Source: Fodinibius salsisoli (lineage in GTDB: Bacteria > Bacteroidota > Rhodothermia > Balneolales > Balneolaceae). Taken from it: a DNA stretch of 64,000 nucleotides. Of the stretch, positions 27,811-39,721 are shown one piece after another. The translations under genes and the position numbers were made by a program. The stretch spans positions 62,001 through 126,000 of the forward strand of contig NZ_JAGGJA010000004.1 of the NCBI RefSeq assembly GCF_026229185.1, read 5' to 3'. A model generated the notes under the pieces. The model had not been told where the DNA came from and searched no databases. It saw only the letters and a program-made list of their open reading frames with translations. Positions within the stretch are counted from its first letter, which is position 1. Every line of letters starts with the position of its first letter.

Positions 27811-28058
27811 TACCTCTGGTAGTCAATTCTATATGCCATGCTAAGAAATGTCTCTCTCCCTGGCAGAGGTTTCGAAATATTATGAAAATTAATTGAAGTC
27901 AATTTGCATGACCACCTTTAAAATGTTTATTTAGCTAATTGTAATCGATTGCGCATAAAAGGGGATCGCATCGATAGATCAACAATTAAAAGTAACTATA
28001 ATTTTTTTTAACAAATGCAGCATCCGAATGCTGTACATAAAATACAAACTGTTAGACT
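27811..28058 (+). promoter_or_regulatory. Intergenic control region with LacI-type operator-like site(s)
   Basis: TGTAATCGATTGCG at 27940-27953 matches 12 of 14 positions of the TGCAATCGATTGCA core of the palindrome upstream of uxaA. A second ATCGAT (27970-27975), 26 bp centre to centre, is flanked by weaker symmetry. Closer to the next gene, CAGCAT (28018-28023) and ATGCTG (28028-28033) form a short leader hairpin. The spacing suggests a promoter driving the DUF1080 and oxidoreductase genes under the same repressor as uxaA. The regulator gene is not in the window. Confidence 0.55.
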
Positions 28059-29435
28059 ATGAGACGTCTTAAACCACTCGTACTATTTCTTATTCTTTTT
28101 ATACCCTTTCAGCTTCAGGCCCAGGATGGCTGGCAGCAACTATTTAACGGGGAAAGCTTAGATGGCTGGACCCAGCTCAATGGCGAAGCCAAGTATTACA
28201 TCGAAGGAGACGCCATCGTCGGCGAAGCCGTCTCAGGGACCCCCAATTCGTTCCTGACGACCGATAAGGATTACGGCGATTTTATTTTGGAGTTCGAAGT
28301 GAAATTGGATCCGAGGATTAACAGCGGTGTCCAAATCCGAAGTAACAGTAACAAAGATTATATGGATGGCCGAGTACATGGCTACCAGGTGGAGTTGGAC
28401 CCATCCGATCGGGCCTGGAGCGCCGGCATATATGATGAAGCACGCAGGGGCTGGCTCTATCCGCTGAGCGATAACAAGAAAGCAGGGGCCGCTTTCAACA
28501 ATGGCAAGTGGAATACCATTCGAGTAGAAGCGGTGGGCTCCCAGATTTATACCTGGATCAACGGCGTACAGGCCAGCCGGCTTGTGGACGATATGACGGC
28601 CAGCGGATTTATTGGTCTGCAGGTACATTCTATTGGCGATCCCAGCCTGGAGGGAGCCAAAATTAAGTGGCGGGATATTAAAATCCGCACCGAAAACCTG
28701 GAAGAACACCGCCAGGCCCCCGATCCTCAGGTTAAAGAGATTAGCTATCTGAAGAATGAACTCACCGAGTGGGAGCAACGTCACGGTTGGCGACTGCTCT
28801 GGGATGGGAAGACCTCCGAAGGCTGGAGAGGAGCGAAGCTCGACCATTTCCCGGAAAAGGGCTGGGAAATTAATGAGGGTGTGCTAACGGTACAAGAAAC
28901 CGATGGAGGCGAAGCTACCGGTCCCGGCGATATCGTGACTACGGATATTTACAGTGACTTTGAACTGGAACTTGAATTCAAGATTACCGAAGGGGCTAAT
29001 AGTGGCATTAAATACTTTGTGGATCCGGAACTGAACAAAGGTCCGGGCTCTGCCATCGGCACCGAATTCCAAATTTTGGATGACCGGCGCCATCCGGATG
29101 CCAAGAGAGGAGTAGCCGGTAATCGTACGGTGGGTTCACTGTATGATCTGATATCTGCGAAAAACCTTTCCGTACCCGGCAGAGGAAAGCCCTTTAACGG
29201 CGTAGGTAACTGGAATAAGGCCCGTATTGTGTCCAAAGACGGGCATGTTGAACACTGGCTTAACAATCAGAAAGTGGTTGAATATGATCGTTTTTCCCAA
29301 ATGTTTGCGTCGCTGGTGGCCTACAGCAAGTATCAAAAATGGGAAAGTTTCGGCCAGTGGCCCCAGGGACATATCCTGCTGCAGGATCACGGTAATGAAG
29401 TGAGCTTTCGAAGTATTAAAGTAAGAGAACTGTAA
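28059..29435 (+). CDS. Secreted protein with two DUF1080 (3-keto-disaccharide hydrolase) domains
   Basis: A 458-residue protein with a signal peptide ending near QLQAQD. Residues about 25-210 (GWQQLFNGESLDGWTQ) and about 238-457 (GWRLLWDGKTSEGWRG) each show the DUF1080 start and LamG-like beta-sandwich pattern; the second carries GTEFQILDDRRHPDA, a family hallmark. Some DUF1080 proteins act on 3-keto-glycosides, cleaving the bond by elimination or hydration, while others only bind glycans. Duplication in one chain is less usual than a single domain. Its position between a GMC oxidase and a Gfo/Idh/MocA oxidoreductase supports the enzymatic reading. Confidence 0.83.
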   Translation: MRRLKPLVLFLILFIPFQLQAQDGWQQLFNGESLDGWTQLNGEAKYYIEGDAIVGEAVSGTPNSFLTTDKDYGDFILEFEVKLDPRINSGVQIRSNSNKDYMDGRVHGYQVELDPSDRAWSAGIYDEARRGWLYPLSDNKKAGAAFNNGKWNTIRVEAVGSQIYTWINGVQASRLVDDMTASGFIGLQVHSIGDPSLEGAKIKWRDIKIRTENLEEHRQAPDPQVKEISYLKNELTEWEQRHGWRLLWDGKTSEGWRGAKLDHFPEKGWEINEGVLTVQETDGGEATGPGDIVTTDIYSDFELELEFKITEGANSGIKYFVDPELNKGPGSAIGTEFQILDDRRHPDAKRGVAGNRTVGSLYDLISAKNLSVPGRGKPFNGVGNWNKARIVSKDGHVEHWLNNQKVVEYDRFSQMFASLVAYSKYQKWESFGQWPQGHILLQDHGNEVSFRSIKVREL

Positions 29436-29466: not shown

Positions 29467-30795
29467 ATGGAATCACGCAAAGAATTTCTCAAGAAAACAG
29501 CACTGGGTGCCGGGGGACTGGCATTAGGGCTGTCTGCTAAAAGCTATGGTAATATTATTGGAGCTAACGACCGCATCCGTGTTGCTTTTATGGGGTGTGG
29601 ACGCCGTGTTCCGGCCTATTACGAGAGCTTGTCCGATCAGTTTAATACCGAACTGGCGTATATCTGTGACGTGAAAGCCAGCCAGCGGGAACGGGTGGCC
29701 GAGGGCTTAAAAGATAGAATTTCCTACACTCCTAAAATGACGGACGATATTCGGGAAGTACTTGATGATCCCGATGTGGATGCCATTTTCAATGCTACGC
29801 CCGATCACTGGCATGCTCCGGGATCACTGATGGCCATGCAGGCGGGAAAGCACGTTTATGTGGAGAAGCCATGCAGTCATAATCCTGCCGAGAGTGAAAT
29901 GTTAATCAAGGCACAAAAGAAGTATGATAAAGTGGTGCAGATGGGGAATCAGCAGCGCTCAGCACCCCATACCATCGAAATTATCAATGAAATTCATGAT
30001 GGGGTTATCGGTGATGCTTACAAGGCCGTTGCTTTTTATAGCAACAGCCGTGGACGTACGCCGAATCCGGTCCGCCAGGATGCACCCGATGATTTAAATT
30101 GGGAACTCTTTCAGGGACCGGCGCCCAGAGAAGACTATCGGCATGATACCTGGAATTACAACTGGCACTGGTACGGCTGGAAGTGGGGCACCGCCGAAAC
30201 CGGCAACAATGCTACCCACGAGGTGGATGTAGCCCGCTGGGCCCTTCAGGTCGACTATCCGGACCAGGTACATGTTGATGCCGACAAGAAACACTTTGCC
30301 GATGACGGTTGGACCATGTACGACACGATGTATGCCACCTTTGAGTATCCCGGGGATAAAGTCATCAACTGGGATGGTAAAAGCCGCAATGGCTTTAACA
30401 CCTATGGCTCAGGCCGTGGAACGATCATCTACGGAACCGAAGGTTCGGTATTTGTCAATCGTGGCGAGTACAAGCTCTACGACCGCAACGGTGACCTCGT
30501 CCGCGAGCAGTCATCCGGAGGGAACGAGCAAGGTACCGCGTTGGGTGGCGGCGGAAGTATGTCGACCCGCCACGTGCTCAATTTCCTGAACACCATCCGA
30601 GGCACAGAAACCGACCAGCATTCCCCCATTGATGAAGGAGCCAAAAGCGTGCACATGTGTCACTTGGCTAACATCGCCTACCGGGCAGGTAAAACATCGC
30701 TCGATACCGATGCTGAAACCGGATATATTTATGACGAGGAAGCTATGGAGTACTGGGGCCGGACCTATGAACCGGGCTGGGAGCCAACCGTTTAA
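29467..30795 (+). CDS. Exported Gfo/Idh/MocA family oxidoreductase
   Basis: A 442-residue NAD(P)-type oxidoreductase with an export signal (SRKEFLKKTALGAGGLALG, Tat-like in style but with RK). The Rossmann motif VAFMGCGRR is at about 39-47 and the catalytic-Lys motif EKP at 133-135, followed by TPDHWHAP-type and ATHEVDVARW metal or substrate-binding segments. Exported members usually keep their NAD tightly bound. In 3-keto-glycoside systems such proteins oxidise or reduce the C3 position. A strong terminator follows 22 bp after the stop, so it ends the transcript. Confidence 0.85.
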   Translation: MESRKEFLKKTALGAGGLALGLSAKSYGNIIGANDRIRVAFMGCGRRVPAYYESLSDQFNTELAYICDVKASQRERVAEGLKDRISYTPKMTDDIREVLDDPDVDAIFNATPDHWHAPGSLMAMQAGKHVYVEKPCSHNPAESEMLIKAQKKYDKVVQMGNQQRSAPHTIEIINEIHDGVIGDAYKAVAFYSNSRGRTPNPVRQDAPDDLNWELFQGPAPREDYRHDTWNYNWHWYGWKWGTAETGNNATHEVDVARWALQVDYPDQVHVDADKKHFADDGWTMYDTMYATFEYPGDKVINWDGKSRNGFNTYGSGRGTIIYGTEGSVFVNRGEYKLYDRNGDLVREQSSGGNEQGTALGGGGSMSTRHVLNFLNTIRGTETDQHSPIDEGAKSVHMCHLANIAYRAGKTSLDTDAETGYIYDEEAMEYWGRTYEPGWEPTV

Positions 30796-30962: not shown

Positions 30963-32207
30963 ATGCTTGGGAAATATTCTTTTGGTACCGGAGATCGTTT
31001 TGGGCAACAAGGCAAAGCGCAATTAAAGGCTATTAAAAAAGCAAAGAAGAACCATGATCTGGAAATTACTCCCGTTTGGAATAAATCGCATCGGGAACAC
31101 GAAATTATTGGCACAAGTCCGATGGATGTCCGACAGGAGGCCGATGATGCGGTGGAAGCTTTGGATTGGAAATATCCCTATTGCGTAGATGCCGACCACA
31201 TAACGAAAGATATTGTAGATGTCTACATATCTTGCTCCAACTTTTTTACTCTTGATATTGCCGACTATATCGGAAATACACCTTCTGCTGCCGAGAAGAA
31301 GGATTTCCTGGAAAGGAACAGGGAGCTGTTAGGTTCTGTTTCCATACCTGGGATCGAGGATGAATTTGATGTTACAGAGCAATATTTGTCCGACTGGGCC
31401 GACCAGTATTTGGCGGCGATTAACCAAGCGAACGAAATATTTGAACATATCCGAAGGCGCAAAGAAGGGCAGGCCGTCTTTGAGATGTCGATGGATGAAG
31501 TAGAGGACCCCCAGTCACCGCTGGAGCTCTTTTTTATTCTTAAAACAGCATCAGAGCAAGGATTGACAATTGATACAATAGCTCCAAAGTTTACCGGAGA
31601 TTTTTACAAAGGCATCGATTATGTGGGGAATATCGATCAGTTTGTGAAAGAGTTTGAGCAGGATTTGAAGGTGATTGCGCATGCGGTGGATACTTTTGCT
31701 CTGCCTGCCAATCTAAAGCTGAGTGTCCATTCGGGCAGTGATAAGTTTTCGCTGTATCCTCAGATACGGCACTTACTCAAAAAGCATGATGCGGGCATCC
31801 ATCTAAAAACATCGGGCACTACTTGGCTGGAAGAACTCATAGGATTGGCTGATGCAAGCAACGAAGGGTGGGCGATGGTTCAGAAAATATATCGAGATGC
31901 TTACGGAAGGTATGAAGAACTAACGCAGCCTTATGCGCCCGTCGTTGATGTGCAAGAAGAGCAGTTGCCTTTGCCCAAAGTTGTGGACAGCTGGTCGGCC
32001 AAGAAATTTGTGGGTAAGCTGGAGCACGATCAAAGTAATCCCGATTTTGATCCCCAGTTGCGCCAGTTCTTGCACTGCTCATACAAGATTGCTGCGGAGC
32101 AGGGAACGTCATTTATTGCGTTGCTAAAGCGCCATGAAAAAATAATAGGGGAGCGAGTGACCCACAACTTGTATGCCCGCCACATTGCTCCACTATTTTT
32201 GGTTTAA
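30963..32207 (+). CDS. uxaE: Tagaturonate epimerase (UxaE family)
   Basis: A 414-residue cytoplasmic protein. The start MLGKYSFGTGDRFGQQGKAQ, the PVWNKSHREHEIIG segment and YCVDADHITKDIVD are characteristic of the UxaE family, described in Thermotoga as interconverting D-tagaturonate and D-fructuronate. His and Asp residues in these segments probably hold the catalytic metal. It links galacturonate- and glucuronate-derived keto-acids, feeding whichever reductase/dehydratase pair is present. It is convergent with the next gene, five bases separating the stops. No copy of the uxaA palindrome was seen upstream. Confidence 0.85.
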   Translation: MLGKYSFGTGDRFGQQGKAQLKAIKKAKKNHDLEITPVWNKSHREHEIIGTSPMDVRQEADDAVEALDWKYPYCVDADHITKDIVDVYISCSNFFTLDIADYIGNTPSAAEKKDFLERNRELLGSVSIPGIEDEFDVTEQYLSDWADQYLAAINQANEIFEHIRRRKEGQAVFEMSMDEVEDPQSPLELFFILKTASEQGLTIDTIAPKFTGDFYKGIDYVGNIDQFVKEFEQDLKVIAHAVDTFALPANLKLSVHSGSDKFSLYPQIRHLLKKHDAGIHLKTSGTTWLEELIGLADASNEGWAMVQKIYRDAYGRYEELTQPYAPVVDVQEEQLPLPKVVDSWSAKKFVGKLEHDQSNPDFDPQLRQFLHCSYKIAAEQGTSFIALLKRHEKIIGERVTHNLYARHIAPLFLV

Positions 32208-32212
32208 GAAGC

Positions 32213-33028
32213 CTAAACGCCACTGAAAGCATTGAAGCCACCATCCACGGGAATAACCGTTCCAGTCACGAATTTAGAGGCGTCACTGCAAAGCCAGAGC
32301 GTTGTTCCAATCAGTTCTTCAGCTTCTCCAAAGCGATCCATTGGGGTGTGATCGATAATCGTTTTGCCGCGCTTGGTTAATGAGCCGTCTTCATTGAGAA
32401 GCAGATCCTTATTTTGTTTGCCAATGAAAAAGCCCGGGGCAATAGCATTGACGCGGAGTCCTTCTCCATGTTTGTTAGCAAATTCAACGGCTAAAGATTT
32501 AGTGAAGTTATCAATGGCTGCCTTGGCTGCAGAATAGCCAATCACCCTGCTGATAATTTTTTGTGCAGCCATAGAGGAAATGTTAATGATAACCCCCTGC
32601 TCGCGTTCAATCATGGCTTTACTAAATACCTTAGTCGGACGATAGGTGCCATGGAAGTTAAGGTCCACCACTTTTTCAAAGGCCTCGTTATCCAGGTCTA
32701 AAAAAGACTGATCGGGGTTAACCACAGCACCCGGTATATTTCCTCCTGCTGCATTGATAAGGATATCAATTTGGCCCCATTCACTGAGTATCTGTTCGTA
32801 GGCTTGGTGTAAGTCTTCGACATCCAGGGCATCAGCTACTAAAGGGATAGCCTCGCCGCCTTGCTCTTTAATAGCATCAACCTGCTGGTTAACAGTTTCT
32901 TCGGTACGGCCCAGTATCGCAACTTTTGCCCCAGCCCCGGCCAGCCCTTCTGCCATAGCGCCTCCCAGGGCTCCGTTACCACCGGTTACAATTGCAGTCT
33001 GTCCCGACAAGTCAAATAATGAATCCAT
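32213..33028 (-). CDS. SDR-family hexuronate reductase (fructuronate or tagaturonate reductase)
   Basis: A 271-residue classical short-chain dehydrogenase. The cofactor motif TGGNGALGG lies at 15-23, NAAGG at 92-96, the catalytic Ser near 151-152, and YSAAK supplies Tyr165 and Lys169. The AGGNIPG and LNFHGTYRPTKVF segments resemble the SDR-type D-mannonate oxidoreductases, which replace the long-chain UxuB in some bacteria. It sits 23 bp downstream of uxaA, so it is most likely the reductase making aldonate for the dehydratase; whether the product is altronate or mannonate is not decidable from sequence. Confidence 0.78.
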   Translation of the reverse strand: MDSLFDLSGQTAIVTGGNGALGGAMAEGLAGAGAKVAILGRTEETVNQQVDAIKEQGGEAIPLVADALDVEDLHQAYEQILSEWGQIDILINAAGGNIPGAVVNPDQSFLDLDNEAFEKVVDLNFHGTYRPTKVFSKAMIEREQGVIINISSMAAQKIISRVIGYSAAKAAIDNFTKSLAVEFANKHGEGLRVNAIAPGFFIGKQNKDLLLNEDGSLTKRGKTIIDHTPMDRFGEAEELIGTTLWLCSDASKFVTGTVIPVDGGFNAFSGV

Positions 33029-33051: not shown

Positions 33052-34707
33052 TTATAGAGAAACACCACGCTTCCAGGGAATAAAATCATTCTGGTTAAGT
33101 TGCATGGCTTTCGTTTTATATTTACCGCTCGCAAGATCAATAATATAATTCAAAATTTCTTCCCCCATTTCTTCAATTGTTTTTTCGCCCGAAATGACAG
33201 GACCGGTATCAATATCGATGATATCAGGCATCCGCTCAGCAAGCTGGGTGTTGGATGACACCTTGGCTACAGGGGTAACAGGGTTGCCTGTGGGCGTACC
33301 TAAACCAGTTGTGAAGAGAATAATATTTGCCCCGGATCCCGCCATGGCCGTAGTACTTTCTACATCATTACCGGGGGTGCAGAGCAGGTTTAAGCCCGGT
33401 TCGCGCACATATTCCGCATAGTCGAGCACGGCTTTTACAGGCGAGGTGCCTCCTTTTTTAGCTGCTCCTGCGGATTTCATGGCGTCGGTTATCAATCCGT
33501 CTTTAATATTGCCGGGAGAGGGGTTCATATCAAAGCCTGAGCCTGAGGCCTCTGCCGCATCCGAATAGCGGCTCATCAGGTCGATAAACCGATCAGCGAT
33601 TTCATTACTTACCGAACGGTCAATCAGTTCTTGTTCTACGCCGCAGAGCTCCGGAAATTCGGATAGGATGACCGATCCACCGAGAGCTGTAATTAAGTCA
33701 CCGGCATGCCCGACAGAAGGATTGGCTGAGATGCCTGAGAATCCGTCTGATCCGCCACATTCCATACCGACTGTTAGTTTGCTCAGTGGAGCCGGCTTAC
33801 GTTCCATTTTGTTAGCCTCCACCATGCCCAAAAATGTTTTACGGATGGCTTCCGAAAGCATTTCATATTCCGTTCCGCTTTGCTGTTGTTCGAAAATATG
33901 CAACGGCTTTTGAAGATCAGAGGTCAGGTCCTGGATTTTTTCTTCAAGAATTTCCACCTGGGCATTCTGGCAGCCTAAGCTTAACACCGTAGCGCCGGCC
34001 ACGTTTGGATGGTATATGTAACCAGCTAATAATCCGCAGAGTGCTTCTGAATCCTGCCTGATGCCGCCACATCCGCCTTCATGGGTTAAAAATTTAATGC
34101 CATCAATATTTTCAAACAACTGATCTTTCTTCGACAGTTCCGTTTTGGGCGGTGGGTTCGACTGCTCGCGGATGGCGTCAAGATCTCCCTGTTTATACTG
34201 CTCGGTCAAGTCGGATACATATTTCCGGTAAACATCCGGATTGGCATACCCCAATTCTTGCACAAAGGCATTCTTGATGACATTGACATTCCTATTTTCA
34301 CAAAACACCAGTGGAATGACCAGCCAATAGTTAGCCGTTCCAACTTGTCCATCGGCACGATGGTATCCCAAAAATGATTTATCTTCCCATCGGTTAACAT
34401 CCGGGGCGGTCCATCCGTCTTGCTGTTGCCTGGAGGAGTAGGCGGAGACGGAATGCTCAGTATTTTCAGTAGTCAGCAGGCCACCGGCCGGAATGTCTTC
34501 GTTCACCGTTCCTACAATGGAACCATACATATAAACCTGATCTCCCGCTTTAAGATCGGTAGCAGCCAGTTTGTGTTTGGCAGGTATTGCATTTCGGAGA
34601 ACTAATGTATCACCATTATAACTGACTTCCTGGCCGGCTTCGAGTGATTTGAGGGCTACCAGGAGATTATCTGACGGATGTATTTTTAAGGTATTTCTTT
34701 GTCCCAT
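33052..34707 (-). CDS. uxaA: Altronate dehydratase (UxaA family)
   Basis: A 551-residue full-length member, with an N-terminal SAF domain (about 1-85, DNLLVALKSLEAGQEV) fused to the large dehydratase domain. GCGG in THEGGCGGIRQDSE, ECGGSDGFSGI and the C-terminal FTTGLGTPTGNPVTPV segments are family signatures; the cysteines probably hold an iron centre. The reaction is D-altronate to 2-keto-3-deoxygluconate. First gene of a two-gene minus-strand operon with the SDR. A perfect palindrome lies 17-40 bp upstream of its start codon. Galactarate dehydratase is the alternative within the family; context favours altronate. Confidence 0.86.
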   Translation of the reverse strand: MGQRNTLKIHPSDNLLVALKSLEAGQEVSYNGDTLVLRNAIPAKHKLAATDLKAGDQVYMYGSIVGTVNEDIPAGGLLTTENTEHSVSAYSSRQQQDGWTAPDVNRWEDKSFLGYHRADGQVGTANYWLVIPLVFCENRNVNVIKNAFVQELGYANPDVYRKYVSDLTEQYKQGDLDAIREQSNPPPKTELSKKDQLFENIDGIKFLTHEGGCGGIRQDSEALCGLLAGYIYHPNVAGATVLSLGCQNAQVEILEEKIQDLTSDLQKPLHIFEQQQSGTEYEMLSEAIRKTFLGMVEANKMERKPAPLSKLTVGMECGGSDGFSGISANPSVGHAGDLITALGGSVILSEFPELCGVEQELIDRSVSNEIADRFIDLMSRYSDAAEASGSGFDMNPSPGNIKDGLITDAMKSAGAAKKGGTSPVKAVLDYAEYVREPGLNLLCTPGNDVESTTAMAGSGANIILFTTGLGTPTGNPVTPVAKVSSNTQLAERMPDIIDIDTGPVISGEKTIEEMGEEILNYIIDLASGKYKTKAMQLNQNDFIPWKRGVSL

Positions 34708-34723
34708 AGGTGGCTTTTTTATT

Positions 34724-34747
34724 TATTGTGCAATCGATTGCACAATA
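34724..34747 (-). promoter_or_regulatory. Perfect 24-bp palindromic operator upstream of uxaA
   Basis: Bases 34724-34735 are the exact reverse complement of 34736-34747, with the central core TGCAATCGATTGCA. The symmetric CG centre and length fit LacI/GalR-family operators. Placement 17 bp from the uxaA start codon suggests steric repression of the promoter. A 12-of-14 match to the core lies upstream of the DUF1080 gene. Confidence 0.85.
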
Positions 34748-34826: not shown

Positions 34827-34862
34827 ATAAAAAAGGGTTACTCCCTCAAGAGAGCAACCCTT
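34827..34862 (-). terminator. Rho-independent terminator of the Hc1-like gene
   Basis: AAGGGTT at 34833-34839 pairs with AACCCTT at 34856-34862, extended by CTC/GAG after one mismatch. Read on the minus strand the stem runs into a T-rich tract (complement of about 34827-34834). It lies 25 bp past the stop of the 60-residue gene. Confidence 0.8.
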
Positions 34863-34886
34863 CGTAATATTATAAAAAAGAAGAAG

Positions 34887-35069
34887 TTACACTTTTCCAG
34901 TGTTTTTCCACTCTTGAATTTCCATTCGGATCTCTTGTGCTTTTTTCTTCATAGCCTGAAGAGTTTTACGAGCACGGGTACCAGCAGCTTTGTTACCTTT
35001 TTCATAGAACTTAGTAATATCAGGTTCCAGCTCATCTAATAGTTCGTTCATTTCGTCGTATCGGCTCAT
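34887..35069 (-). CDS. Hc1 / histone H1-like small basic protein
   Basis: A 60-residue protein. An acidic N-terminal helix (DEMNELLDELEPDITKFYEK) is followed by a basic segment, GNKAAGTRARKTLQAMKKKA, and a final helix. The KGNKAAGTRARK stretch is typical of the short Hc1-type proteins of Bacteroidota, which are presumed DNA-associated. A GGAG-like ribosome site precedes the ATG and a clear terminator follows, so it is a single-gene transcript. Function is by family resemblance only. Confidence 0.82.
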   Translation of the reverse strand: MSRYDEMNELLDELEPDITKFYEKGNKAAGTRARKTLQAMKKKAQEIRMEIQEWKNTGKV

Positions 35070-35947: not shown

Positions 35948-36661
35948 TTAATGTGAGTTTGAAAGTGAAGATGCCCGAAAACTGAAAGGCATAAGATCAG
36001 TATCAAAGTGTATTGACTGGGAGCCGTCAGCGTGGTGTAAATGGATTTTTTGCCCCTGGAGATGTTCAATAATTACTTGGCGGCAGGCTCCACATGGACT
36101 GCTAAACTCACCGCTGCGGGTGTGGATATGTAAGTCCAAAAGTGTTGAAGCCCGGTAGCTTAGTGCTTTAAAAATAGCCACGCGCTCGGCGCATAGCCCC
36201 AGGTTCCAAGCCGAACATTCAATATTAACACCGCTAAAGTAGCCGAGATTTGTTTTAACAAGGGCGGCAACTGGAAAGTTAGAATACCTGACCCGGGCTT
36301 GGGGAAGAAGTTGTGGCAAAATATCCACCGGATTTACTTTATTATCGATACTGATAGAGTTGCATCGATCAGCCGGGAGGTCATCGGGATCTAAAGAGTC
36401 GATGGATAGCCCGTATTCCTGCTTCCAAAATGGCAGAAGGGGATCGTTATTGTTGGTTATCCAAAGTTTTTGAGGGGTATCGCCTTCACTTAGACAGCAA
36501 AAAAGGGCATTCTGAGCGGCTGAAACGGATAATGGATATGAAATATTTTCAACACGTATACCGGGGAAAAAGCGCCCTTCGGCACTATGGACTAAGGCGC
36601 CTTCAGGCTGGGAAGAATAGGGCACATAACTGGATTTGAGAACTTCAGAAAGGTTAAGCAT
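35948..36661 (-). CDS. cdd: Cytidine deaminase with degenerate N-terminal domain
   Basis: The ATG at 36661 gives 237 residues. The C-terminal half carries the catalytic set: GVNIECSAWNLGLCAER (Zn Cys and catalytic Glu in CAE) and PCGACRQV (two Zn Cys). The N-terminal half (about 15-105) repeats the fold in worn form: ENISYPLSVSAAQNAL aligns with the same region but has SAAQ for CAER and no PCGxC. Thus it is a two-domain enzyme with catalytic and inactive halves in the opposite order to E. coli Cdd. It hydrolyses cytidine/deoxycytidine to uridine. Its ATG overlaps the TGA of the upstream gene by one base. Confidence 0.85.
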   Translation of the reverse strand: MLNLSEVLKSSYVPYSSQPEGALVHSAEGRFFPGIRVENISYPLSVSAAQNALFCCLSEGDTPQKLWITNNNDPLLPFWKQEYGLSIDSLDPDDLPADRCNSISIDNKVNPVDILPQLLPQARVRYSNFPVAALVKTNLGYFSGVNIECSAWNLGLCAERVAIFKALSYRASTLLDLHIHTRSGEFSSPCGACRQVIIEHLQGQKIHLHHADGSQSIHFDTDLMPFSFRASSLSNSH

Positions 36662-39615
36662 CAAATAATAATTGAAGAAATTATAGCATCAGCTACCGCA
36701 GCTCGGACTTTACTAATGTTTTTACCATAGGAACGGTAGGGATAGGTACGGTTTGTTAAAATTATTATAGCGATATTTCGTTCCGGATCCACCCAAAAAC
36801 TGGTACCAGTAAAGCCGGTATGTCCAAATGATTGGTCACTGGTCATAGAACCGGCGGTACTAAATCGTTCACTTTTGCGATCAAAACCATAACCGCGGTT
36901 AATCAGATCTGTTTGTCGTTGGGTAAATTGTTCAATGATCTCCGGGGAAATATATTCTTTGCCGGCATACGACCCTTTGTTAATCAGCATCTGGGTATAG
37001 ATGGCAAGGTCGGTACCACTGGAAAAAAGCCCGGCATGCCCGGCAACTCCATCCATATAGTAAGCTCTTTCGTCGTGGGCTTCGGCGCGTATGGTTTTAT
37101 GTCGATAGATGGTATCTTTTTCGGTTGGTGGAATGCGGCTGGAAATCCATGTTCCAACTTCCTTGGGGTTAAAATAGGTATTGTTCATTCCCAGGGGCGC
37201 ATAAAGCGTCTGTCGTACATAGTTATCCAGACGTTGGCCCGTTACTTTCTGAACAATTTCACCCATCAGGATAAATCCCAAATCGCTATATTCATAGGTT
37301 GTCCCGGGTTTATAGATCAGGGGTTCATTTTTAATGGCTTCAACCAGCTGCGATCTGGTTTTTAATTTGTCTATGTAGATACGAAAGGCTGGTAATCCTG
37401 AATTATGCAGGAGTAAGTTTTTGATGGCAACCTCACTCTTTTGCCCCTCTTTGAACTCTGGGAAATATTTGCTGACTTTATCATCCAGATGCACTTTGCC
37501 TTCGTCAATAAGTTTCATCATGGCCGGCGTGGTAGCTGTCACTTTAGTAAGAGAAGCCAGATCGTAAATGTCACTGATATGCACGGGTTCCTGCTTTTTA
37601 TAGGTCTCGTACCCAAAGGCCTTTTGGTAAGATAGGACTCCATCTTTAAGTACAGTGACAACTCCCCCAGGGAAGGTGGAATCGAAGACGGCATTATTCA
37701 TTATATCATCGACCTTTTGAAGAGAATCCGGTGCAAAACCTACTGCTTCAGGGTCGTCGTATCGGATGGTTGTTTGGGGCAGCGTGATTCCCTCATTCAT
37801 GTCATATGCCCCGGGAATATTGATGGGAAGGCGACCGCTTATTTTGGAGGCTCCAAAAAGAGCCGGGGCCGTATTTTTAAGTTGATGGTCGGAATCATCC
37901 CAGGCAACCAGCTGTACATCGGCATCGGGAAACCCCTTGAGGGCATAGGGGTTTCCAAATGTTATAACGCCTTTGGGCGTGCCGGTTGGGAGATCGTCAA
38001 GTATCCGGCGCTGAGAAGTATTGAACTGATTCTGACCATTGGAGTTAATATACATGTGGGCACCAATAATAATCAGATCCGCCCACCGTGCATCTTGCAG
38101 GATTTCCTGGCGATCATCGGGCTCAATGTTTCGATAAAATACGTTGTGGCGGACCGATGGATGGTATTTGTTCATCTCTTCTACGAGAGCAGAACCTCGA
38201 TTTTCATCTTCGGTATCAGTGATTGAGAGGACTAACACCCGGGGAAACCGGTGAGAACGAATAGGCAAGATATTAGTCTCATTCTTAAGCAGAACAAGTG
38301 ATTTGCGGCTGATTTCATCCGCCATTTTTTGATTTTCGGGGCTGTTAATAATCTCACTAAGCCGTTCGATATCCACTTTACGATTGTTAAATAAACCGGC
38401 CTCTTTTTTCTTTTGTAGTATCTTACGAACCGACTGATTAATCCGTTCCTCGGTGATGGTTCCCCGCTGTACCGCCCGTTCAACCTGTTGAATAGCAGTT
38501 ACCTCATCCAAACTTAACAGCATCAGGTCGGCGCCTGCTTTAAGGGCTAAAATAACGGCTTCCCCCGGTGAATAATGAGCGGAAATACCGCGCATCTCAA
38601 GTCCATCAGTAACTACCAAGCCATTAAAGTTCAGGGAATCCCGTAAGATTCGGTTTAGGATGTAGGGGTCCAGTGTACCGGGGCGGCGAGGCGTAGGGCT
38701 GATATTGGGAAAAGCAATATGGGCACTCATAATACTTTTGAGGCCATTGCTGACAGCAGATTTAAAAGGGAGAAGCTCAACGGATTTTAGCCGATCATAA
38801 TTGTGGTTAATAACAGGAAGCGAAAGGTGGGAGTCCGTATCGGTATCGCCGTGGCCGGGAAAGTGCTTGGCCGTTGAAATAACGTTTTGGGAATGTACGC
38901 CATCAATAAAATGCTGACCATATTGAGAAACTGTATCCGGGTTGCTGGAAAAGGAGCGTACATTAATAACCGGATTGCTGGGGTTGTTATTAACATCAAG
39001 TACGGGGGCAAATATTTGATGAACCCCCAGTGCTTTCGCTTCCTGGGCAGTTATTTTCCCCGCCTGATAGGCGTAATCGGGATTCTGGGTGGCAGCAATC
39101 CCCATCGCAGGAGTAAGGCGTGTGGTTTCTTCAACACGCATGGCAGCACCAAACTCCATATCCTGGGTAATCCAAAGAGGAAGTTTACTGAGTTCTTGCA
39201 ACCTATTGGTTAGTACAGCCTGCCCGTAAATACTTCCTTTAAAAAAGATGAGTCCACCGAGGTGGTGTTTTTGAATTTTTGAGGAAAGTTCCTGATATGA
39301 CTCGTCGCCAATATTTTTAAAATAACCTTCGGCGCGAATAAAAAAGAGCTGTCCGATTTTTTCGCGCAGAGACATCGAGTTTAAAAGGGTATTTACGCTA
39401 ATATCGGTTGGAGGCTTTGTGGCTGAGACCGAGTCTGCCTTTGGCTTATCATCAATATAAGGCAGATTGATTTCGGCATTTGCGACCTGCTGCGCATTCG
39501 CATCCATAGGACCTGAACCATCGATTGATGAACAGGACATCGAAAAAATGAATAGAACCAAAATAGTAGCCCCAAAGGCTATCATTTTTTGAACATAGTT
39601 TCCCGAAAGCTGCAT
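36661..39615 (-). CDS. GH3 (NagZ-like) glycosidase fused to class C beta-lactamase-like domain, lipoprotein
   Basis: ATG at 39615 gives 984 residues; an in-frame TTG nine bases earlier is less likely. The lipoprotein Cys28 follows LFIFSMSC. Residues about 70-400 are GH3 with KHFPGHGDTDTDSH, the NagZ-type His-Asp signature for beta-N-acetylglucosaminidase, and VTDGLEM for the nucleophile Asp. A GH3 C-terminal domain follows to about 600, then a serine beta-lactamase/esterase domain with SLTK (Ser688, Lys691), YSDLGF and GHTGFTG. This fusion is known in Bacteroidota and is probably involved in peptidoglycan or aminosugar turnover. First gene of a three-gene operon with cdd and the kinase-like gene. 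Confidence 0.87.
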   Translation of the reverse strand: MQLSGNYVQKMIAFGATILVLFIFSMSCSSIDGSGPMDANAQQVANAEINLPYIDDKPKADSVSATKPPTDISVNTLLNSMSLREKIGQLFFIRAEGYFKNIGDESYQELSSKIQKHHLGGLIFFKGSIYGQAVLTNRLQELSKLPLWITQDMEFGAAMRVEETTRLTPAMGIAATQNPDYAYQAGKITAQEAKALGVHQIFAPVLDVNNNPSNPVINVRSFSSNPDTVSQYGQHFIDGVHSQNVISTAKHFPGHGDTDTDSHLSLPVINHNYDRLKSVELLPFKSAVSNGLKSIMSAHIAFPNISPTPRRPGTLDPYILNRILRDSLNFNGLVVTDGLEMRGISAHYSPGEAVILALKAGADLMLLSLDEVTAIQQVERAVQRGTITEERINQSVRKILQKKKEAGLFNNRKVDIERLSEIINSPENQKMADEISRKSLVLLKNETNILPIRSHRFPRVLVLSITDTEDENRGSALVEEMNKYHPSVRHNVFYRNIEPDDRQEILQDARWADLIIIGAHMYINSNGQNQFNTSQRRILDDLPTGTPKGVITFGNPYALKGFPDADVQLVAWDDSDHQLKNTAPALFGASKISGRLPINIPGAYDMNEGITLPQTTIRYDDPEAVGFAPDSLQKVDDIMNNAVFDSTFPGGVVTVLKDGVLSYQKAFGYETYKKQEPVHISDIYDLASLTKVTATTPAMMKLIDEGKVHLDDKVSKYFPEFKEGQKSEVAIKNLLLHNSGLPAFRIYIDKLKTRSQLVEAIKNEPLIYKPGTTYEYSDLGFILMGEIVQKVTGQRLDNYVRQTLYAPLGMNNTYFNPKEVGTWISSRIPPTEKDTIYRHKTIRAEAHDERAYYMDGVAGHAGLFSSGTDLAIYTQMLINKGSYAGKEYISPEIIEQFTQRQTDLINRGYGFDRKSERFSTAGSMTSDQSFGHTGFTGTSFWVDPERNIAIIILTNRTYPYRSYGKNISKVRAAVADAIISSIII

Positions 39616-39721
39616 ATTTCTCAATTAATAATTATTTAGGGGTTACACCGTCTGTAATAGAAATAACATAGCTGAAAGCTATTGTCAAGTCAACGGTTAT
39701 TATCAGATGGCCTGAAAAAGT

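Follow-up and report, generated by a model that had tools for sequence, protein, structure and literature searches.

A perfect 24-bp palindrome in front of the hexuronate gene uxaA is very probably a binding site, predicted from sequence, for a LacI-type repressor of genes that break down pectin-derived sugar acids. We think it highly likely, taking the explanation as a whole, that a LacI-family repressor encoded at C38:43633-44670 binds the palindrome, blocks uxaA, and also controls the uxaC operon and several SusC loci. The genome comprises 4.85 Mb in 43 contigs (C38 and the like), and by the window we mean the whole 64-kb stretch that was analysed, C38:62001-126000; positions given without a contig are window positions. 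The palindrome had been taken for a LacI/GalR-type operator on account of its symmetry. That reading is now supported because its core is in excess in the genome and recurs at linked genes with a lacI gene among the sites, because the motif accompanies the orthologues of that lacI gene, and because it precedes uxaA in three distant genomes.

The symmetry itself is as first described: the halves, TATTGTGCAATC and GATTGCACAATA, are exact reverse complements, and the center, read directly from the sequence, is CG. The palindrome does lie close upstream of the uxaA start, but the spacer to the ATG (at 34707, minus strand) is 16 bp long (34708-34723) and not 17 bp as the original prediction had it. 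The core 14-mer, TGCAATCGATTGCA, is 21 bp from the ATG. Could such a palindrome be there by chance and have no function? The symmetry common to the other sites is only about 16-18 bp, and what extends beyond about 18 bp here may be accidental. Against chance stand the numbers: no other perfect even palindrome in the window reaches 16 bp, palindromes of at least 24 bp are expected at a mean of 0.005 per window (maximum 1 in 200 dinucleotide shuffles), and a search for the 24-mer allowing up to three mismatches finds one place in the window and none in 100 shuffles. Further arguments against chance, an explanation that we consider scarcely credible, are that the core is over-represented at related genes across the genome and that uxaA has this motif in front of it in three distant genomes.

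It is also very improbable that the palindrome acts as an RNA hairpin in the uxaA leader, through attenuation or mRNA stability. The transcript could fold into a stem of 10 bp closed by a loop of 4 bases, which is weakly above shuffles (z -1.81; 10/200 shuffles fold at least as well), but at the other sites, whose symmetry is imperfect, it is the DNA motif that is retained and not a perfect stem, and the motif stands at variable distances from genes, for example 276 bp before lacI. A promoter scan of the uxaA upstream region found one candidate against 0.9 expected from shuffles, and no promoter was placed there. Further upstream, a terminator-like stem with a T run (34832-34863, minus strand) lies 3' of a 60-aa reading frame (34887-35069, minus strand), on the same strand as uxaA; it would insulate the uxaA promoter region.

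Table 1. Operator candidates and neighboring genes in the window, and places elsewhere in the genome that match the operator core
Feature	Position	Strand	Remarks
Operator	34724..34747	.	Perfect 24-bp palindrome, central CG; core at 7 further genome places with at most one mismatch
uxaA, altronate/galactarate-dehydratase family	33052..34707	-	551 aa; first gene behind operator; PF20629, PF04295, SAF
SDR, D-mannonate oxidoreductase type	32213..33028	-	NF006132 above cut-off
Second, weaker operator candidate	27940..27953	.	TGTAATCGATTGCG; 2 mismatches; 105 bp upstream of gene at 28059
3-keto-disaccharide hydrolase-type protein	28059..29435	+	First behind second site; PF06439
Oxidoreductase	29467..30795	+	Weak glycoside 3-dehydrogenase family match, below cut-off
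uxaE, tagaturonate epimerase	30963..32207	+	Convergent with SDR; PF16257
Site	34729..34742		Before uxaA; at most one mismatch
Site			Before uxaC, 18 bp from its start; at most one mismatch
Two sites	C38:56989, C38:57243		Both before one SusC gene, downstream of pectinesterase gene
Site	C38:44947		276 bp before lacI; 171 bp before first possible ECF-sigma frame start
Site	C11:118928		Before SusC gene without shown pectin link
Site	C11:150208		Within over-long open frame; upstream of SusC only if start is internal Met
Site	C11:140684		Before 740-aa gene without Pfam or NCBIfam match; rhamnogalacturonan/pectin-type locus

The genes behind the two window sites are listed in Table 1. Because the uxaA product matches the NCBIfam galactarate dehydratase below its cut-off, the assignment to altronate is drawn from context. 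The SDR gene follows uxaA after a gap of 23 bp and is probably cotranscribed with it. The second operator candidate is weak on its own, since 7 of 100 window shuffles contain at least two such matches; the unit behind it possibly includes uxaE, which is preceded by a 168-bp gap. The uxaE product aligns with positions 80-437 only of a 475-position profile; either the protein is short at its N-terminal side or its start codon lies further upstream. Elsewhere in the window (36661-39624, minus strand), a glycosyl-hydrolase family 3 protein is fused to a beta-lactamase-family domain.

Sites in the rest of the genome were sought by pattern searches with the core TGCAATCGATTGCA, which is found exactly at 2 places, with one mismatch at 6 and with two mismatches at 23; the same pattern read backward, as a control, has 8 places within two mismatches. 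For the places with at most one mismatch the comparison is 8 seen to about 0.88 expected from base composition (chance of eight or more, about 4e-6). All eight lie in front of genes, C11:150208 on condition that the SusC protein starts at an internal Met. They do not refute the operator reading, as random matches with no tie to uronate genes would have: two are at hexuronate operons, one is at lacI and the ECF-sigma gene, four are at three SusC genes, and one is at an unassigned gene (C11:140684) that adjoins a gene for a protein of PcRGLX type, whose family name points to a rhamnogalacturonan-lyase-like protein. An even palindrome of about 16-24 bp with a central CG, the form described in PMC4052901, that recurs upstream of functionally linked genes is what is expected of a LacI/GalR operator. 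Nine of the 23 two-mismatch places were examined. Two agree with the regulon: C38:45165, by the ECF-sigma gene, and C38:89940, which is window position 27940. Two others are by a xylose-side LacI gene on C33, and five are inside open frames.

Where is the regulator encoded? The original prediction placed no LacI-type gene in the window and had the regulator act in trans, and the genome supports this: there are 10 PF00356 matches, none of them within C38:62001-126000, and among the clustered sites, though outside the window, there is a gene of the LacI family. This gene, C38:43633-44670, shares the contig of the window, from whose edge it is 17.3 kb away (52 kb from uxaA), and it is flanked by the uxaC site on one side and by the sites leading to the ECF-sigma gene on the other. 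Its product has the PF00356 helix-turn-helix (HTH) domain and the periplasmic-binding-protein-like PF13377 effector domain, both above cut-offs, and reaches no NCBIfam equivalog cut-off. Behind the uxaC site the gene order is uxaC-kdgK-eda-dctP-dctQ-dctM-uxaB-uxuA, the dct genes being those of a TRAP transporter; uxaC, eda, dctP, dctM, uxaB and uxuA are above curated cut-offs, the kdgK match is below, and dctQ is named by position. Together with the window's uxaA, SDR and uxaE, this operon makes the full galacturonate/glucuronate route to 2-keto-3-deoxygluconate (KDG). We propose that the regulator is a KdgR/UxaR-like repressor, a prediction from sequence that draws on the sites at uxaA and the uxaC operon here and at kduI, kdgK and eda in relatives. 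A search of this genome for kduI gave no match, and the empty answer of such a search carries little weight. Next to lacI, C38:45132-50819 encodes an ECF sigma factor, a FecR-like protein and a receptor of the TonB-dependent kind, and LacI-type sites lie between the genes there; this locus is possibly under two layers of control. A literature search within reach of open text, as opposed to subscription papers and figure logos, returned no paper for the 14-mer core and none recognised as treating this regulator.

At E 1e-60 the regulator has matches in 26 of 58 family genomes, its own included, and a 62-70% identical protein is present in eight family genomes besides its own. The motif with at most one mismatch is found 14 times around eight family orthologues (mean 0.03, maximum 1, for 179 permuted palindromes). 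A search of contigs gave a similar count for the first 16 loci (L102-L117, 48-66% identity), with 14 motifs against a mean of 0.05 and a maximum of 2 for permuted palindromes; the next 16 loci (L118-L133) have 0 sites within two mismatches, and the last 48 (L134-L181) have 11 motifs (mean 0.16, maximum 4). Related loci are not independent in any of these counts. In two of the contig records, L102 (PWIL01000110.1, titled Mollicutes; 66% identity) and L141 (JADCRZ010000001.1, titled Williamsia; 42% identity), the encoded LacI protein belongs to this Bacteroidota-type group, and the titles look misassigned.

The sites in relatives precede kduI, kdgK, eda and lacI genes. The kduI clusters there contain kduI, a KduD/gluconate-5-dehydrogenase-like SDR, lacI, kdgK, uxuA, eda and TRAP genes (genes checked in locus L088). 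Since sites stand before kduI clusters, kdgK and eda in family relatives, the conserved regulon appears to center on KDG. When 27 genomes were scanned for the 14-mer with at most one mismatch, 17 had a place, and the backward control had one place each in 3 of the 27. One-mismatch places also occur in genomes that have no close orthologue (for example three in G010 and two in G026), and 20 of 78 sites in relatives are inside called open frames, some of which are over-long.

Across the family, uxaA is not generally under this regulator: of 28 genomes searched, five family relatives have uxaA, and in them the gene follows uxaB in a uxaB-uxaA operon that has no site in front of it. Three distant genomes do have a site in front of uxaA, which in them is not behind uxaB. 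In Chryseolinea sp. H1M3-3 (L103) it is CGCAATCGATTGCG, 29 bp before the uxaA start. In the other two (L184, L185) it is TGCAATCGATTGCG, which lies upstream of the match by 33 bp and of the ATG of MSNKF by 21 bp; the latter spacing is identical to that in the window. Among 30 uxaA loci, the best 30 of at least 84 matches in 75 genomes, three, one of them the window's, have sites with at most two mismatches (mean 0.04, maximum 1, for permuted controls). Among the 24 non-family genomes from this best-match uxaA list, a LacI protein of 58-59% identity is found only in the site-bearing G102 and G222; of the remaining 22, 18 have a LacI protein of at most 50% identity and four have none at E 1e-70.

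The link between motif and LacI lineage also shows in a helix string of the proteins. In a tree of 108 LacI proteins, built quickly and with long branches among unrelated paralogues, only the branch around the regulator was used; the regulator stands there in a supported branch of 10 rows nested in one of 45. One-mismatch sites are present at 20 of 25 loci whose LacI protein has the helix string ASTVSR (24 of 25 with two-mismatch sites), and at 9 of 62 loci with other helix strings; this count keeps 87 of the 108 rows, loci under 6,000 bases being dropped, and its rows are related, not independent.

With 10 LacI genes in the genome, might a different paralogue bind the uxaA site? The likeliest would be C33:216626-217663, which is 41% identical to the C38 regulator and lies beside genes for a GH67 alpha-glucuronidase, a xylose-isomerase-like protein and an FGGY kinase. 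Near it are the sites TGCAACCGATTGCG and CGCAACCGATTGCA (C33:216373 and C33:220213; L031:6373 and L031:10213), one of them before the GH67 gene. They differ little from the uxaA core, and some loci of the C33 branch also have one-mismatch sites of the uxaA type. Nevertheless, the C33 sites have AACC/GGTT in one half-core whereas the uxaA site has AATC, it is the C38 gene, not the C33 gene, that has exact or near-exact AATCGATT sites around it, and the C33 helix reads PSTVSR, not ASTVSR. We therefore regard binding of the uxaA site by another paralogue as unlikely. The C33 paralogue resembles the C38 regulator as a sister-type LacI protein with nearly the same operator and differs in its AACC-type half-core and xylose-side neighbors; its sites are predicted to mark a sister regulon.

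A regulator from another family has also to be considered. CRP sites have TGTG...CACA arms with a spacing of 6 in the consensus. Such arms are present in the palindrome, but they are 8 bp apart, the conserved part is AATCGATT with CG at its center, and the motif accompanies one LacI lineage. Binding of the uxaA site by, for example, a CRP-like protein is accordingly very improbable, even though a global sugar regulon of the Crp type is predicted for Bacteroides in PMC3878776.

On the preferred reading, the C38 repressor would bind as a dimer, with one recognition helix in each half-site and the hinge helices at the central CG. In the LacI family a leucine of the hinge wedges into the central CG of the operator, and the sole support here for such a contact is Leu58, invariant in 12 aligned proteins. 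The transcription of uxaA would be blocked while no uronate is catabolised. We infer binding, and repression rather than activation; because the operator is close to the start codon, blocking of the promoter or of the first transcribed bases is the natural way to read it. The repressor would be released by a pathway intermediate, most likely KDG, chosen because the uxaA and uxuA branches meet there; that KDG is the inducer seems to us an evenly balanced proposition. The same regulator would control the uxaC-kdgK-eda-TRAP-uxaB-uxuA operon, the SusC loci and the ECF-sigma/FecR/SusC locus; its own gene is probably autoregulated, and the uxaE unit is perhaps controlled as well.

The case would work like the known hexuronate regulators of Bacteroides; the mechanism is itself textbook, and the example is new. 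KdgR (BT0487), UxaR (BT0824) and UxuR (BT1434) are predicted, in PMC3878776 and PMC4052901, to be LacI-family hexuronate regulators, and as described there they likewise control glucuronate and galacturonate catabolism. The regulon proposed here, unlike theirs as so described, has several SusC genes and an ECF-sigma/FecR locus; the KdgR regulon also includes a few periplasmic or extracellular proteins (PMC3878776). LacI-family operators, according to PMC4052901, are similarly even palindromes with a central CG, upstream of sugar catabolism genes and with probable autoregulation. The uxaA palindrome departs from that account in its 24 bp of perfect symmetry (16-22 bp there) and in the distance of its core from the ATG, 21 bp as compared with 30-140 bp for more than 75% of the sites. 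The nearest solved relatives over the whole length, from the HTH to the C-terminal domain, are CcpA and PurR (structures 1rzr, 1jh9 and others), which differ from the C38 regulator in effectors and regulons; no hexuronate LacI regulator was recognised among 24 solved-structure matches.

More broadly, and tentatively, since we would put it at somewhat less than even, one LacI orthologous group (helix ASTVSR, operator TGCAATCGATTGCA) may couple glycan uptake of the SusC type, along with an ECF-sigma/anti-sigma pair, to catabolism at the KDG node across several Bacteroidota lineages, with uxaA recruited separately in different lineages where it lies outside a uxaB-uxaA operon; the sister xylose-side regulators, one base apart in the half-core, would then illustrate how the operators of paralogues diverge in nature. 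A paralogue whose operator differs by one base offers a clean test case for LacI specificity. What was an isolated palindrome becomes a regulon that can be tested, for which a regulator, a list of targets and a candidate inducer are proposed, and such a regulon would explain how the cytoplasmic hexuronate enzymes and the outer-membrane importers are switched jointly.
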